From a virus: a DNA stretch of 42,414 nt. This document shows positions 2,154 to 42,414 of the stretch, one piece after another (the stretch's first letter is position 1; each line of letters opens with the position of its first letter). Where the stretch lies: positions 1-42,414 of the IMG/VR virus record IMGVR_UViG_3300020202_000136. One strand, given 5' to 3'. Both the position numbers and the translations under genes were made by a program. Below the pieces are notes generated by a model, which saw only the letters and a list, made by a program, of their open reading frames with translations, was not told the DNA's origin and made no database searches.

Positions 2154-2372
2154 TCATTTAGCCAACTCGGCTTCTGCTCCTGCTCCAGCTACAGCCGCTC
2201 CTGCTCGCCGCTCCTGCTCCCGCTCCAGCTCCTGCTCCTGCTCCTGCTCCTGCTCCATCTCCCGCTCCAGCTCACGCTCCATCTCCTGCTCCAGCTCACG
2301 CTCCTGCTCCCGCTCCTGCTCCAGCTCCTGCTCCCGCTCCAGCTCCTGCTCAAGCCGCCGACCGCCAACCAA
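2154..2372 (-). CDS. Possible Glu/Gln/Arg-rich coiled-coil protein encoded by a hexamer repeat (doubtful)
   Basis: A 72-codon frame whose first two thirds are almost entirely E, Q, R and L in a six-base repeat, ending in an [16 protein letters not shown] tail. If translated it would be a highly charged helix. Three frames stay open through this simple repeat. One competing minus-strand frame (2189-2404, Trp/Ser/Arg-rich) has the better start, because its ATG overlaps the TGA of the gene at 2401-2730 as ATGA. The plus-strand frames read Leu-rich or Ala-Pro-rich. Open frames are expected by chance in such a repeat, so I give low confidence. It fills the gap between two real minus-strand genes. 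Confidence 0.2.
2171..2352. repeat. Degenerate hexamer microsatellite (GCTCCN)n
   Basis: About 180 bases made of GCTCCT, GCTCCC, GCTCCA and close variants. It runs in an almost unbroken 6-base register from about 2210 to 2352, with a one-base phase change near 2203-2210. It sits between two genes of the early operon (2401-2730 and 1032-2054). It may be coding, a protein-binding array, or simply a slippage product. Confidence 0.9.
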
Positions 2373-2400: not shown

Positions 2401-2730
2401 TCATTTCGTTAGTTGCGGGATTTTGTGTAGCCAGGGGAAAGCATCGACAATAGCCGTCAAGGACACTATCGCGTCCCCCACATGCTCGACTTCGTCTAAT
2501 TCGCCTTTTGCAATCGCATTTGAAAAGCGCCCGCTATCAGCCACCCAGGACGCATCCGAAAGCACCAGGAAATTCCCCGATACTCTCTCGATTCGCCCAA
2601 CCATGTGATAAGTGACGGTGCGGAAGAAATACGCTTTGCCGATAACAAAGGGCAATGCGTCACCGTTCGATGTTGCGCCTTTCTCGTTTAGTAATTGCTC
2701 CAACAATTTTTCAATCAACTGCGTTTTCAT
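2401..2730 (-). CDS. Conserved-looking phage protein of unknown function (109 aa)
   Basis: The protein starts [14 protein letters not shown], then has a beta-rich core ([33 protein letters not shown]) and ends [18 protein letters not shown] recognise the type only as a small hypothetical protein of phages and mobile elements; the core looks like a compact beta barrel. An AAGGAGATAAAAA ribosome-binding site precedes the ATG. Directly upstream on the same strand is an array with GG every 5 nt (2746-2777), which may control it. Its stop overlaps a downstream ATG as ATGA, the coupling style used across this genome. No enzymatic motif is visible. Confidence 0.8.
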
Positions 2731-2745
2731 TTTTTATCTCCTTTA

Positions 2746-2777
2746 CCAAGCCACACCTTGCCACACCGCGCCATACC
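2746..2777 (-). promoter_or_regulatory. Leader array with GG every 5 nt (CC on plus strand), copy 1
   Basis: On the plus strand CC dinucleotides fall at 2746, 2751, 2756, 2761, 2766, 2771 and 2776, seven in a row in exact 5-base phase. On the minus (message) strand this reads as repeats such as TATGG, TGTGG and CAAGG. It lies directly upstream of the ribosome-binding site of the gene at 2401-2730. A longer array of the same type lies before the VRR-NUC gene at 38541-38897. It could bind DNA or RNA; its role is inferred from position only. Confidence 0.6.
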
Positions 2778-2842
2778 CAAAAAACCTAACCTGCCCGCAA
2801 CATTTCGCGTTTTACCGTCGATGAAACCCTGCCCAGCCGTCA

Positions 2843-33780: not shown

Positions 33781-34100
33781 TTCGAGAGGCCCTCCCATTG
33801 CACCTGCGGTAAATGTGACGCGATATCCAGATGAATATGGCGATCATAAAATCCCACCCGGACAAATCCGGCGCGGCCCGCCCCGTAGGCGATCCGTTGC
33901 GCGAGAATAATGTCCCCCTTGTGCCCGACGTCGATCGCCTCGCCGCTATAATGTGCGGACGCTTTCACGTGTTCGCCCTTGGTCGTGCTAGTCAGTCGCC
34001 ACGGCACGCCGGACAACCGCCGTCCAATATCGGCCCGGTCCACGAGCGATTTTTTGAGGCCCTTCACTTCCTCGTCGGTAAAGTACAGCCATTGGCCCAT
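33777..34100 (-). CDS. Peptidase M15-like endolysin
   Basis: A 107-residue protein. STTKGEHVKASAHYSGEAIDVG carries the SxHxxGxAxD zinc motif, and FYDRHIHLDI carries the HxHxD metal-binding end, as in peptidase M15 endolysins that cleave peptide bonds in peptidoglycan. It is short, consisting of a bare catalytic domain with no wall-binding part, as is usual in phages of Gram-negative hosts. GAGGGGGA precedes the ATG at 34100, which shares a base with the upstream TAA. No signal peptide is seen, so it needs a holin. It lies far from the holin candidate at 10036. Confidence 0.75.
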   Translation of the reverse strand: MGQWLYFTDEEVKGLKKSLVDRADIGRRLSGVPWRLTSTTKGEHVKASAHYSGEAIDVGHKGDIILAQRIAYGAGRAGFVRVGFYDRHIHLDIASHLPQVQWEGLSK

Positions 34101-35440
34101 TAATCCCCCTCGATAATACGCCGCCGGATCGCTTCGCGTTCAGCGAGGTGATTCAGGCTCATCGATCCGTGATGGCGGCGATAGAAAAAGGCCGGATGTT
34201 CCCAGTACCCGATTTTGAAGCGGCCTTGTAGGCGTTTGTAGAGTTCCAAGCTGTCGTAATGGCGTAACCCATCGCGGAACCGGATGTCGTTCAGCACCGA
34301 CCGCTTAAAGAGGGTTCCCCCGGCATGGTGATGGACGCTTCCCGCGGTGACGGTCCAATTGCCTGCCGTCATCGTGAAATCGCCAGATTCGTCTGTTTCG
34401 ACGTAGCCGGGATACACCGCGTCGAATCCGTGTTGCTCGGCATAATCGATCATGCGCTCCACGGCTCCATGTAAGAGCTTGTCGTCAGCATCGAGGCGCA
34501 TCACGTATTTTCCGCAAGCTGCGGAGATGGCGACGTTCGAGCTTGCGGCTAACCCGATATTTCGCTCGTTAATAATGACCTTCAGGCGCGGGTCCGTGGC
34601 GAATTTGGCGATTTCGAGAAGCGTGTTATCTGTCGATCCATCGTCGACGACGATATACTCAAAAAACCCTGCGCCATTGTGCAGAACAGTCTGCATAGCT
34701 TCGGAGACAAATGGCTCCGCGTTATAGGCGCAGGTGTATAGGGAGACAGTCGGTAAATGGTTGATGGCTAAGAGCCAGGGACGTTGATCAATGAACCGAC
34801 AAATATCGTCGCACGAGGCGAGAGCGCCCAGCTTTCGAAGGACAACCTCCAAAAACTGGGCGTCAGCAGGGTAGTCTAAGGTCATCCGGTAGGTGCGGCA
34901 TATGGCAGGGCGCGGGCGGTATACAAACTCTTTGGCGGGATTCACGCCTCGAACAAAATAGCTGATAAATTCGGTCGGCTCTTTGTGGTTATTGGCGGCG
35001 CTCAGTAAGGTAGCCAGATCAATCACTTCGACCCCGGCCCCCTCGACAATGTCAGGAGCCCAGACATAGGAGGCATCTTTTTCGTGCGCCATGGCGATCA
35101 TTTCGACCATTGATTGCGCGTCAATGATCGCGTCGTCGTGCGTGATGCGGACGATATAGGTCGGCGGTTGTCGGAGTTTCATCACGGCGGCGGCCATGCG
35201 GTGCAGAGGTGAATCGGCGACGCCTTGAAAAATGGTGACTTCCGGATACCGCGCTTCATAAGGTAGATAGCCGTCTGCTTCGCCTTGCGGCACCGCGACG
35301 ATAATCGGGATCCCATGCCCGGAGACCCGTTTGAGGATATGCTCGAGGACCGAGAGCCCCGCGATCCGCTTAAACACTTTTCCCGGCAGACGCTTGGACT
35401 GCGGACGGGAACAAATGACGATAACCGCGTCTGATCTCAT
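34100..35440 (-). CDS. Bifunctional SpsF-like cytidylyltransferase / GT2 glycosyltransferase
   Basis: A 446-residue protein. Residues 1-225 are a nucleotide-sugar synthetase of the SpsF/KdsB clan (ICSRPQSKRLPGKVFKRIAGLSVLEHIL with the S-R-L-P-G-K motif, IVRITHDDAIID, YRMTLDYPADAQFLE). Residues 230-446 are a GT-A family 2 glycosyltransferase (VSLYTCAYNAEPFVSEAM, EYIVVDDGSTDNTLLE, YVMRLDADD as the DxD metal motif). The pair would activate a sugar acid with CMP and transfer it, or combine two related steps. The ATG at 35440 overlaps the TGA of the preceding gene. Its presence inside the late operon, with a PEP-condensing enzyme and methyltransferase nearby, suggests an envelope- or virion-modification pathway. 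Confidence 0.82.
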   Translation of the reverse strand: MRSDAVIVICSRPQSKRLPGKVFKRIAGLSVLEHILKRVSGHGIPIIVAVPQGEADGYLPYEARYPEVTIFQGVADSPLHRMAAAVMKLRQPPTYIVRITHDDAIIDAQSMVEMIAMAHEKDASYVWAPDIVEGAGVEVIDLATLLSAANNHKEPTEFISYFVRGVNPAKEFVYRPRPAICRTYRMTLDYPADAQFLEVVLRKLGALASCDDICRFIDQRPWLLAINHLPTVSLYTCAYNAEPFVSEAMQTVLHNGAGFFEYIVVDDGSTDNTLLEIAKFATDPRLKVIINERNIGLAASSNVAISAACGKYVMRLDADDKLLHGAVERMIDYAEQHGFDAVYPGYVETDESGDFTMTAGNWTVTAGSVHHHAGGTLFKRSVLNDIRFRDGLRHYDSLELYKRLQGRFKIGYWEHPAFFYRRHHGSMSLNHLAEREAIRRRIIEGD

Positions 35441-38310: not shown

Positions 38311-38544
38311 TTATTCGATCAGCCATGGCGCGAGGTGCGTCAACAAAGTACAGGGCGGTGCGGTGGATTGTTTCTCCAACTCCGCCAGGCGGGCCTTGAG
38401 TGCGGCGATCTCCTGGTCTTTGATTTCGAGCAGGCGAAAGAAAAACGTCGCGTCCCAGTGTTGTGTATCGGAGACCGCCGACCACATGAGATGGTTCGCC
38501 CGAAGACGCGACAGGCGATCTTGATCGGCGGCGGTGATACTCAT
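38311..38544 (-). CDS. Small coiled-coil protein (77 aa)
   Basis: The ATG at 38542-38544 (MSITAADQDRLSRLRANHLMWS) overlaps the VRR-NUC TGA as ATGA. The C-terminal half is a coiled coil (FRLLEIKDQEIAALKARLAELEKQ). It probably works with the nuclease or forms oligomers; the function is unknown. Confidence 0.65.
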   Translation of the reverse strand: MSITAADQDRLSRLRANHLMWSAVSDTQHWDATFFFRLLEIKDQEIAALKARLAELEKQSTAPPCTLLTHLAPWLIE

Positions 38545-38897
38545 ATCCGTAACACGACCCCGCGGCTCCGCAGTTCCCGCGAGACGTCGTCCCAGCCGGT
38601 TGCAAAAAGCGCAATGCACCCATCCGCCTTGGCGCGGTCAATAAACGCGACCTGTTCAGGCCTTCGCCGGTGGCGGCCAGGCCGTTTCATTTCGATGTAG
38701 AGCGGCACAGGACACGCGCACTTAAACACAGGCTCAAACTTTCCCCCCGGCACATACCCTTGCAAATCCGGCAGACCGGCCTCACTCATGGATGCGCCCG
38801 GTAACCGTTCTTTCACCTGCCAGACCGGGATTCCGCATAACGCTAAACCGTCACGCACCTGCCGAACCATGTCAGACTCCCGCGGATTAATCCTCAT
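38541..38897 (-). CDS. VRR-NUC domain nuclease
   Basis: The start is the ATG at 38895-38897 (MRINPRESDMVRQVRDGLAL), giving 118 residues. GLPDLQGYVPG supplies the D, PLYIEMKRPG supplies the E-x-K, and RPEQVAFIDRAKADGCIALFA supplies the RxxQ helix, a complete VRR-NUC PD-(D/E)XK core as found in small phage nucleases acting on DNA junctions or ends. The in-frame extension upstream is only the translation of the 5-nt repeat array (38903-38959), which lies directly before the start and may control expression. Confidence 0.82.
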   Translation of the reverse strand: MRINPRESDMVRQVRDGLALCGIPVWQVKERLPGASMSEAGLPDLQGYVPGGKFEPVFKCACPVPLYIEMKRPGRHRRRPEQVAFIDRAKADGCIALFATGWDDVSRELRSRGVVLRI

Positions 38898-38902
38898 GCA
38901 AA

Positions 38903-38959
38903 CCATACCTTGCCATACCTTGTCCCACCGAACCGGGCCGTGCCATACCCGACCTTGCC
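38903..38959 (-). promoter_or_regulatory. Leader array with GG every 5 nt, copy 2
   Basis: On the plus strand CC occurs at 38903, 08, 13, 18, 28, 33, 38, 43, 48, 53 and 58, eleven of twelve positions in exact 5-base phase (the one at 23 is TC). On the message strand this is a run of TATGG, CAAGG and similar pentamers ending close to the VRR-NUC start. A second array of the same register lies at 2746-2777. Confidence 0.65.
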
Positions 38960-39021: not shown

Positions 39022-39095
39022 GCCCTCATCGTCTAGAGGCCTAAGACATCGCCCTTTCAAGGCGAAGACCACGGGTTCGAATCCCGTTGAGGGCA
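39022..39095 (+). tRNA. tRNA-Glu (anticodon TTC)
   Basis: A complete cloverleaf. The acceptor is GCCCTCA (39022-39028) pairing perfectly with TGAGGGC (39088-39094), followed by discriminator A (39095). The D arm is GTC...GAC (39031-39047). The anticodon stem is TCGCC/GGCGA, with loop CTTTCAA and anticodon TTC at 39056-39058. The T arm is ACGGG-TTCGAAT-CCCGT (39071-39087). CCA is not encoded. The integrase gene starts its 3' end 185 bases further on, so this is the likely integration target type. Confidence 0.93.
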
Positions 39096-39279: not shown

Positions 39280-40419
39280 TTACCGTAATTCCACATCCGC
39301 CTGTAAATTCGCTTCGATTTGTTCATTTTCCCTTGCCAAATTATTTGTAGCAACAAACGCCGATTGTCCCTTTTTTGTCCCAGTTGTTGGCGACTTACGG
39401 GGGGCAGCAAGCTCCATTGTGGCCCGCATATGGGCCGGGGAGAGGTGGCTATACCGTTGCACCATACGCAAGGTCTTATGGCCTAACGCCTTGGCAATGG
39501 ATTGCGCGTCCGCGCCCCGCATGGCAGCATGGCTAGCCCAGGTATGGCGCAGGTCGTGAAAGCGGAAATCGACCAATCCGGCCAAGCGAACCGCCGCGTG
39601 GAACCGGTGCAGGAAAAACCCGTGCCGATTGAGCGGTCGCCCGTGATGCGTGAAGATCCAGCCGGTCCGCTGGCTCACGGGAGTTTTTTCTAGCAGTTCG
39701 GTGATCTCGGTCGTCAATTGCACAAACCGGCCCTCTTTGTTTTTTGAATGGGCCGAGGTGATGAGCGCCCAGCCGCGGCGAAGGTCGACGTCCTGCCACT
39801 GAAGCTTGAGGATTTCCCCTTGTCGCATACCGGTATGTCGCGCGAAGAGGATCACGCCCTGAATATCGGGATGCGCGGCATTCATGAGGCGGTAGAATTC
39901 GTCGTCTTCAATGTAGCGGATTCGCTCGTCATCGACTTTTTCGAGGCGATACTCGGCCAGCGGATGGTCGTCAATCATGCGCCATTGGAAGGCTTTCCGC
40001 GTCGCCGCTTTCAGGATGGTCAAATCGCGCCGCAGGCTCGACTTAGAGAGCCCTTTGGTCTGGCGGTAGGCATAATAGCGATCGGCCAAATCCCAGAGCT
40101 CGCTTACCTTGCGGCCCCAGAAGAAATGGCGCATGTACTTAATGGCGTGGTATGTCCGTACGATGCTTCCCGGTCGTTTGGGTTTGATATGCAGCCGGTA
40201 GTATCGGGAGAGAATCTTCGACACCGACACCTCGGCGGTTTTCGGCGTGGCGGCCGCCGCACGGAGAGGATCGAGGCGGCCTTCCTGCACGGCCGCTCGG
40301 TAAGAGGTCGCCCACGCTTCCGCAAGGCGCGCATCGGTCTGTCCCGTGCTGACGTAAACCCGCCGCGCCTTATGGGTGAACCGAAGCCAGTATGTCGCGC
40401 CGCGCTTGTAGAGTCCCAT
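39280..40419 (-). CDS. int: Tyrosine recombinase (phage integrase)
   Basis: A 379-residue protein. The N-terminal half has an arm-binding-like strand region (MGLYKRGATYWLRFTHKARR) and a core-binding domain (SILSRYYRL..., GLSKSSLRRDLTILKAATRKAF). The catalytic domain has the first arginine in ARHTGMRQGEIL, the H-x-x-R in FHDLRHTWASHA, the later LGHKT histidine, and the tyrosine in RYSHLSPAHM. It would integrate the phage into the host tRNA-Glu gene. The start (ATG at 40417-40419) overlaps the excisionase-like gene by 50 bases, so the two are coexpressed. Its 3' end runs towards the tRNA on the opposite strand. Confidence 0.95.
   Translation of the reverse strand: MGLYKRGATYWLRFTHKARRVYVSTGQTDARLAEAWATSYRAAVQEGRLDPLRAAAATPKTAEVSVSKILSRYYRLHIKPKRPGSIVRTYHAIKYMRHFFWGRKVSELWDLADRYYAYRQTKGLSKSSLRRDLTILKAATRKAFQWRMIDDHPLAEYRLEKVDDERIRYIEDDEFYRLMNAAHPDIQGVILFARHTGMRQGEILKLQWQDVDLRRGWALITSAHSKNKEGRFVQLTTEITELLEKTPVSQRTGWIFTHHGRPLNRHGFFLHRFHAAVRLAGLVDFRFHDLRHTWASHAAMRGADAQSIAKALGHKTLRMVQRYSHLSPAHMRATMELAAPRKSPTTGTKKGQSAFVATNNLARENEQIEANLQADVELR
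39365..39382. repeat. 18-bp repeat (17/18), copy B inside the integrase 3' end
   Basis: TGTCCCTTTTTTGTCCCA, matching 39110-39127 with one difference. It lies in the coding region for the last residues of the integrase, 255 bases from the first copy. A paired arrangement flanking the att region fits integrase arm sites or a duplicated end. Confidence 0.55.
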
Positions 40420-40618
40420 CGGCCTTTGTCTCCTTTATCGTCTTCACTTTTCGCTTGTCGATCTCTTTATCGAGATCGGCTTTATCGAAGCGTAACCCCT
40501 TCCGTTTACCCCACCGGACAAACGGGATCAGTCGATTTTCCACAAGATGGTAGAGATAGTCAACGCTTAAAGCGGTATAAATGGCGGCTTCGTTAATCGT
40601 GAAAAGGCGTTTATCCAT
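40370..40618 (-). CDS. Excisionase-like helix-turn-helix protein
   Basis: An 82-residue protein. LFTINEAAIYTALSVDYLYHLVENRLIPFVRWGKRKGLRFDKADLDKEI is the MerR-type/HTH_17 winged helix pattern of phage excisionases. It begins 8 bases before the stop of the methyltransferase gene, with GGGAGAG upstream, and overlaps the integrase start by 50 bases. It would direct integrase towards excision, or act as an early regulator. Confidence 0.75.
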   Translation of the reverse strand: MDKRLFTINEAAIYTALSVDYLYHLVENRLIPFVRWGKRKGLRFDKADLDKEIDKRKVKTIKETKADGTLQARRDILASVHP

Positions 40619-41840
40619 TGGCGACGCTCTCCCGTTCGGCTTTCCGACCAGTCAGATTCTCCCATCGCCGGATGACCACGTCGCAATATTTGGGCTCCAA
40701 CTCAATCCCAAAACACCGTCGCCCCAGTTGCTCGGCGGCGATAAACTGGGTTCCACTGCCCGCAAAGGGCTCTAGGACGATATCGCCGCGTTGCGTGTGG
40801 TTCCGAATCGGTATAGAGAAAAGCTCCACAGGCTTTTGCGTGGGATGGATCTTGTCGTTTTCGCGGCCGATCTCCCAGACATTGCTCTGATTTCGTTCGC
40901 CCAGGAAATCCGGCCTTTTCCCTTCAGGCCAACCATGGAAGCATGGCTCGAACCGATGATGATAGTTACTGCGACCAATCACAAATCCCGGCTTTAGCCA
41001 AATAACGATCTGGTGGATAAAGATTTTCATTTGGTCAAGTGCTTCCATGAATTCCCGGCGCCGTGCGTCTGAGTGCCATACGTAGACGCCACACTTCTCG
41101 GCCGCAAAACTGAAAGCATTCCCCAATGTATCGACTAGAAATTGCGTCAATTCTGGCCCCTTCATATCGTCGGCTTCAATGTCGAGATCGGTGGCGGCCT
41201 GACTGTGCCTATAGCCGCGTTTGACCATGGCGCGGGCTTTAGAAACGTAGTCGACACCATACGGCGGATCGGTTGCGATGAGCATCGCTTTCTGGTCGCC
41301 CATTAACCGCTGAAAATCCGTGATCGCCTTGGAGTCCCCGCACAATAAGCGGTGGTCGCCCAGTTTCCACAAATCGCCCTTTTGCGTGATCGGCTCGGCC
41401 GGAGGTGCGAGGAGTGAACTTTCCTCCACCAGAGGGAGAGGGACAGCTAGATCTTGGATCAGTTCCCGTAACAGTAAATCGTCGAACATCACCGGATCCT
41501 TGGTTCGAATCTCATCTAAGAGCCCCTGTAACTCATCGGTGAATTCGCCGACGATAACAGGACTGTTGAGGGCTACATTGAGAGCCTTCTCCTCCGTCTC
41601 GGGAAGATCGACCGCCACGACCGCCGCTTCTTTAGCTCCGAGCGCCTCGAGTACCTTGATTCGCTGATGCCCGCCGATCACATGTCCCGTGCGCCGGTTC
41701 CAGACGATCGGCTGGACAAGGCCGAACCGTTTCACCGATTGCGTCAGGCCCTGGAGGGCTTGCTCTGTGATCTGCCGCGGGTTATACGGTGCGGCCGTAA
41801 GGTCGGCCAAGGACATGGTGCGAATATCGTGATTTATCAT
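40611..41840 (-). CDS. ParB-domain / beta-class DNA N6-adenine methyltransferase fusion
   Basis: A 409-residue protein. The N-terminal 110 residues are a ParB/sulfiredoxin-like domain (MSLADLTAAPYNPRQITEQAL, LVQPIVWNRRTGHVIGGHQRIKVLEALG). A C-terminal methyltransferase follows: ATDPPYGVDY (motif IV, about residue 190), then IVLEPFAGSGTQFIAAEQLG (motif I, about residue 360) and CFGIELEPKYCDVVIRRW. DPPY and this order mark a beta-class N6-adenine enzyme. Such fusions are common in phages and mobile elements. Its ATG overlaps the upstream TGA as ATGA. Specificity is not readable. It is distinct from the enzyme at 1032-2054. Confidence 0.92.
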   Translation of the reverse strand: MINHDIRTMSLADLTAAPYNPRQITEQALQGLTQSVKRFGLVQPIVWNRRTGHVIGGHQRIKVLEALGAKEAAVVAVDLPETEEKALNVALNSPVIVGEFTDELQGLLDEIRTKDPVMFDDLLLRELIQDLAVPLPLVEESSLLAPPAEPITQKGDLWKLGDHRLLCGDSKAITDFQRLMGDQKAMLIATDPPYGVDYVSKARAMVKRGYRHSQAATDLDIEADDMKGPELTQFLVDTLGNAFSFAAEKCGVYVWHSDARRREFMEALDQMKIFIHQIVIWLKPGFVIGRSNYHHRFEPCFHGWPEGKRPDFLGERNQSNVWEIGRENDKIHPTQKPVELFSIPIRNHTQRGDIVLEPFAGSGTQFIAAEQLGRRCFGIELEPKYCDVVIRRWENLTGRKAERESVANG

Positions 41841-42287: not shown

Positions 42288-42414
42288 TGCGGCCAGATGC
42301 CTGTGGTTCCAGCCTTTAATCAGCGCCCACGCCGCACAGCCCAAATCGGCACGAAAGCTATTTGTCTCAAATCGCCATTTTTAACTGCGCCAATTCTGTA
42401 ACAATACGCCGCTG
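42288..42414. repeat. 127-bp exact direct repeat, right (terminal) copy
   Basis: Identical to 953-1079 and ends exactly at the window end. The next base in the left copy (1080) would continue the methyltransferase gene. With its length of 127 bases, this indicates that the true sequence continues at 1080, closing a circle. The C-terminal codons of the methyltransferase (QRRIVTELAQLKMAI) are present again here on the minus strand. Confidence 0.9.

Follow-up and report, generated by a model that had tools for sequence, protein, structure and literature searches.

The window analysed here is the whole 42,414-nucleotide stretch of the IMG/VR virus record IMGVR_UViG_3300020202_000136. The record ends in 127 bases (42288-42414) that exactly repeat positions 952-1078. 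Because such an end repeat is the usual mark of a self-closed assembly, the window is probably a complete circular genome of ~41.3 kb; the layout suggests that the first ~951 bases of the record are a side branch. A tyrosine integrase gene (39280..40419, minus strand; Pfam PF00589, E=5.9e-33) adjoins a tRNA-Glu (TTC) gene on the plus strand (39022..39095, found by ARAGORN and Rfam), which from its position is probably the attachment site, and the window is probably a temperate phage. This tRNA-Glu gave matches of only ~88%, spread over several phyla. The window also encodes RecT, a replication initiation protein, two DNA methylases and a long minus-strand block of structural-looking open reading frames, which was annotated in part. 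A protein that is a fusion of a ParB-N domain and an N6/N4 DNA methylase (40611-41840, minus strand) has homologues in four array-bearing loci of the collection described below.

Two arrays of five-nucleotide units lie on the minus strand. The longer one (array 2, 38900..38959) is on the opposite side of the tRNA-Glu gene from the integrase gene. Read from 38959 to 38900, it consists of GGCAA GGTCG GGTAT GGCAC GGCCC GGTTC GGTGG GACAA GGTAT GGCAA GGTAT GGTTT. Eleven of the 12 consecutive units begin with GG, each time followed by a pyrimidine (GGY), and the exception is unit 8, GACAA; 35 of the 36 fixed positions are thus intact. The two remaining letters vary (AA CG AT AC CC TC GG (AA) AT AA AT TT from 5' to 3'). 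A register scan of the window ranked array 2 first among 5-nt GGY registers. Among 200 dinucleotide-preserving shuffles of the same strand the maximum stayed at 4 to 6 of 12; a binomial estimate puts the expectation of 11 of 12 at ~1e-9. The sequence, the scan and the shuffles all bear out the count of eleven GG units in register that had been made from the sequence alone. The spacing rule proposed at that time holds in both arrays and is tighter than was described, namely GGYNN with a variable NN.

Array 1 (2743..2777) has seven perfect units with the NN letters AT GC GT AA GT TT AA from 5' to 3', and its 3' side carries a Shine-Dalgarno sequence and then ATG 2730. Upstream, behind a 4-nt spacer (2781..2778) that breaks the register, stand three extra units, GGGCA GGTTA GGTTT (2782..2796, minus strand, read from 2796 to 2782), and we infer that they belong to array 1. 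The two arrays had been placed 3.5 kb apart across the genome junction; since the last 127 bases repeat positions 952-1078, the distance through the circular junction is ~5.1 kb.

Both arrays lie immediately upstream of minus-strand gene starts, as the sequence-only reading had noticed. The gene 3' of array 2 (38541..38870, minus strand) encodes a small VRR-NUC or Holliday-junction-resolvase-like nuclease, according to its PHROG matches (phrog_824, E=6.8e-10; phrog_5702, E=2e-7); its match to Pfam VRR_NUC was below the cut-off (E=0.031). Its start is probably ATG 38870, preceded by GGGAG, with ATG 38897 as a possible alternative. No relatives of this protein or of the protein encoded at 34100-35440 were found in IMG/VR. 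The gene 3' of array 1 (2401..2730, minus strand) encodes a 109-aa protein with no Pfam or PHROG match. It is conserved in six other viral contigs at 41-74% identity, and none of these has an array in the record or upstream of the gene, or a vipr gene. Array 1 is therefore not an intrinsic or standing leader of this gene. Hexamer arrays occur near the 109-aa gene as well: GGAGCN in the window (2172-2351, minus strand) and in contig L243 (7955-8110), NGGTCT in L247 (8268-8455), and a looser form in L245 (7765-7930). Translated, they give serine alternating with arginine, glycine or tryptophan. These hexamer arrays look coding, because the serine codons differ between phages; the variable base would occupy the first position of an NGG codon.

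We scanned IMG/VR for eight consecutive GGYNN units and obtained at least 120 loci, an unrandomised sample for which alone the following fractions hold. Among the matches listed, 114 of 120 viral loci had arrays with variable NN. Most of the listed loci had arrays with mixed NN letters, some of which ran for hundreds of bases with interruptions of the register. The column frequencies over 391 segments of the listed viral loci were G.975, G.967 and C.75/T.23, followed by two variable bases, the first with a slight purine excess. Array lengths among the viral loci listed ranged from 6 to >20 units, most commonly 9-14. In prokaryotes (one genome per species), (GGYNN)10 was found mostly as uniform tandem repeats, and 9 of the 120 loci listed were varied. 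Some units in the long arrays of L112 (1477-2206) and L058 (2838-2980, minus reading) have GTNN-, TGTNN- or GCTNN-like forms in place of GGY, with the 5-nt register kept; these may represent the "related consensus" found in other types of VIPR. In L007 (11565-11700, plus strand) a long perfect hairpin, possibly a guide tail or a terminator, stands between the array and the start of the gene behind it.

Of the 113 proteins that start within 130 nt downstream of arrays in the listed viral loci, 21 belong to the largest family, whose members are ~190 aa long and have the motif I.G.TPLLMHR in their N-terminal part and a C-terminal GxGDFRPexGxFGxF loop. It corresponds to PHROG 4652 (phrog_4652), which is unannotated in function and has no Pfam family. 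The profile of this family matches PDB 36pp, "SUSP1 Vipr protein", with E=1.6e-43. A literature search with the repeat pattern itself gave no match, and the link to VIPR came through this PDB match. The family was present in 86 of the 114 listed array loci and in 93 when the rest of each record was counted, as compared with 1 of 119 loci lacking a variable-NN array and 0 of 7 viral records collected for other reasons. Array and vipr gene shared a strand 137 times and lay on opposite strands five times, at a median distance of ~120 nt. A search of the host and related phages for further arrays and a small RNA-binding protein had been proposed as a check; the scan turned up GGYNN arrays beside the Vipr family in many phages that are unrelated to one another.

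VIPR was described in 2026 as a virus-encoded, RNA-guided relative of CRISPR, older than CRISPR, that reads two of every five letters and whose guide and protein are encoded together (PMC13142463). Its guide, the Viral Interference Programmable Repeat RNA (vrRNA; PMC13142463, bioRxiv 10.64898/2026.04.26.720920), is phage-borne and contains 9-16 YNNGG repeats with fixed GGY. It is transcribed as an RNA of ~100 nt and bound by Vipr, a RAMP-family RNA-binding protein of solved structure that works with vrRNAs (PMC13142463). Double-stranded DNA is recognised through pairing of the NN letters with a 1-nt skip, usually at the codon wobble base, and the systems of SUSP1 and of Pseudomonas prophages target satellites and competing prophages (PMC13142463). 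Seven Vipr types and six families of accessory (vap) genes are distinguished; the types vary in how the array is laid out, in its tail and in their vap genes, which in some types encode nucleases; type II vrRNAs have an invariable 3' tail, and another type has a hammerhead-interspersed array (PMC13142463). The main text of that description does not treat arrays without vipr, and it mentions that some satellites carry vrRNAs of their own (PMC13142463).

The arrays of the window share with vrRNAs the GGY/NN pentamer register, the variable NN, the phage genome and the non-coding position. The 12 units of array 2 are inside the published range, and array 1 has seven units in register or 10 with the slipped ones. 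The gene behind array 2 encodes a small VRR-NUC-like nuclease, and nuclease vap genes are described for some VIPR types. Unlike published vrRNAs, the two arrays have no adjoining vipr or recognisable vap gene, lie ~5 kb apart beside unrelated genes, and lack a visible conserved 3' tail, their two tails being unlike each other; array 1 is moreover shorter and slipped. No sigma-70-like promoter was found on the array strand in the window, and there was no hammerhead or Rfam match near array 2. VRR-NUC was considered as a constant partner of the arrays and rejected, as one homologue was found among 123 array loci and it was not adjacent to the array. From their sequence we regard the arrays, with high confidence, as vrRNA-like.

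Vipr, the usual partner of such arrays, was not found in the window. No profile HMM match was obtained at an E-value cut-off of 50, the best profile-profile probability over 341 frames was 4.7%, and a six-frame search reading through stop codons revealed neither vipr nor a remnant of it in the window. The six-frame search works on such records, because it recovered vipr in 7 of the 28 listed array loci without a local copy. The window might still encode a Vipr whose type lies beyond the reach of the profiles used. Because these searches did not recover the protein that defines a VIPR system, we rejected the window as such a system. The window is not alone in this respect, for 21 of the 114 listed array-bearing viral records (~18%) are vipr-less, and seven of these are 35 kb or longer. 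The records of at least 35 kb with GGYNN arrays and no Vipr match are L027, L058, L076, L031, L035, L011 and L013. In the vipr-less loci, profile-profile comparison of 538 open reading frames near the arrays gave a best probability of 22% and no convincing divergent Vipr. No other protein family recurred beside these arrays; the recurrent clusters were translations of the arrays themselves.

We also searched for targets. The predicted 1-nt-skip target of array 2 is AANCGNATNACNCCNTCNGGNAANATNAANATNTT. The ten-unit target had no exact match in IMG/VR. The first nine units had one exact match, in a phage gene (L249) that resembles P1 PmgP/PmgO and sialyltransferases, with the skip at the wobble base. 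This match covers nine of the 12 units and fails at units 10-12. Controls with array 2 in reversed order and with its 3' half gave 0 matches each. L249 was rejected as a target; it fails the last three units and, given the controls, is not above chance. Among 398 Pseudomonadota genomes, taxa that may not be the host's, there was one match with two mismatches against ~0.4 expected, and this cellular gene (L250) was likewise rejected as compatible with chance. For self-targeting, no match above shuffled guides was found in the window or in the collected loci. We claim no convincing array target in the sequences searched.

The sequence-only reading had proposed a shared regulator acting on the two downstream genes and had likened the eleven GG units to the subunits of a TRAP ring. 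A 5' leader that acts in cis and is bound by an oligomer like TRAP would account for the position of both arrays, just upstream of gene starts and on the coding strand, and would resemble TRAP leaders in the 5-nt period and the ~11 units. Of 187 viral arrays, 63 also have a same-strand gene start with a Shine-Dalgarno motif no more than 40 nt downstream; the corresponding figures are ~27 for random positions and 6 for the opposite side of the arrays. That arrays often stand just before same-strand gene starts explains the first impression without implying regulation. The genes directly behind arrays in other phages are diverse, which goes in part against a role tied to one kind of gene start; the arrays track Vipr rather than one kind of downstream gene, and the six relatives of the array 1 gene do without an array. 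The window units are GGYNN and those of TRAP are (G/U)AGNN; the spacer letters are free to vary in the window, the linked protein family is a different one, and the widely varying lengths show no preference for 11. No TRAP family match was found among the window proteins scanned, which were part of the window's proteins. We consider such a leader very unlikely. Because the unit equals the published vrRNA consensus and such arrays are linked to Vipr, a reading as vrRNA genes fits the arrays best. What stands of the earlier proposal is that two arrays follow one rule and that an RNA-binding protein working unit by unit is their likely reader; a TRAP-like factor acting on the two genes is unsupported. 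A neutral microsatellite, or a G-quadruplex-forming repeat with no guide role, is scarcely credible. GG pairs with 3-nt gaps can form two-tetrad quadruplexes, and the arrays have this spacing. Against this, no stable fold was seen, the predicted one being no more stable than those of shuffles; the NN letters are variable and not copied, all in-register GG units have a pyrimidine as the third base, and the register is strict. The cellular (GGYNN)10 repeats are mostly uniform, whereas the viral arrays are not.

The remaining alternatives accept the arrays as vrRNA-like and differ in what became of Vipr. The phage may once have possessed a VIPR locus, or have acquired vrRNAs, and later lost vipr, so that the arrays would be decaying passengers. 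The short and slipped array 1, the one broken unit of array 2 and the missing vipr would fit such a relic; yet nearly all fixed positions of array 2 are intact, no remnant appears even with stops read through, and the ~5 kb between the arrays is unlike an ordinary VIPR locus, where array and vipr are separated by a median of ~120 nt. On balance we think decay unlikely. Solitary CRISPR repeats act as RNA anti-CRISPRs, and the arrays might by analogy be decoys that sequester a competitor's or the host's Vipr. Guides without an effector in the window, and a fixed GGY retained although targets were not found, would suit a decoy; however, the target searches covered part of public sequence, in taxa that may not be the host's, and we hold this reading to be doubtful, even more so than decay.

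We therefore favour, with a probability of about 0.8, the reading that the arrays are vrRNA-type guide genes of the VIPR kind, which would act in trans with a Vipr from elsewhere. The arrays would be transcribed, the fixed GGY of each 5-nt unit would be held by one Vipr subunit, and the NN would base-pair with the DNA target, skipping one base from each pair to the next. Vipr would be supplied by another resident or a co-infecting element, which would make the arrays orphan guides; such guides are most likely used with a Vipr encoded elsewhere, and would most likely repress competing phage. Tentatively, and at somewhat less than even odds, orphan vrRNAs may form a class of their own, in which temperate phages carry guides without vipr and borrow or jam the Vipr of a resident prophage, the host or a co-infecting phage.

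The GGY/NN consensus of vrRNA is already published, and what is unusual here is guides in a phage genome without detectable vipr. Arrays can be recognised from DNA alone by their GGYNN register, which makes it possible to count the cases that lack vipr. With mini-CRISPR arrays and RNA anti-CRISPRs, guide and effector are on different elements. Intact-looking guides without their protein, in a probably complete phage genome, would mean that guide and effector of the VIPR kind can live on different elements too, and orphan guides raise the question of cheating, cooperation or jamming between phages.
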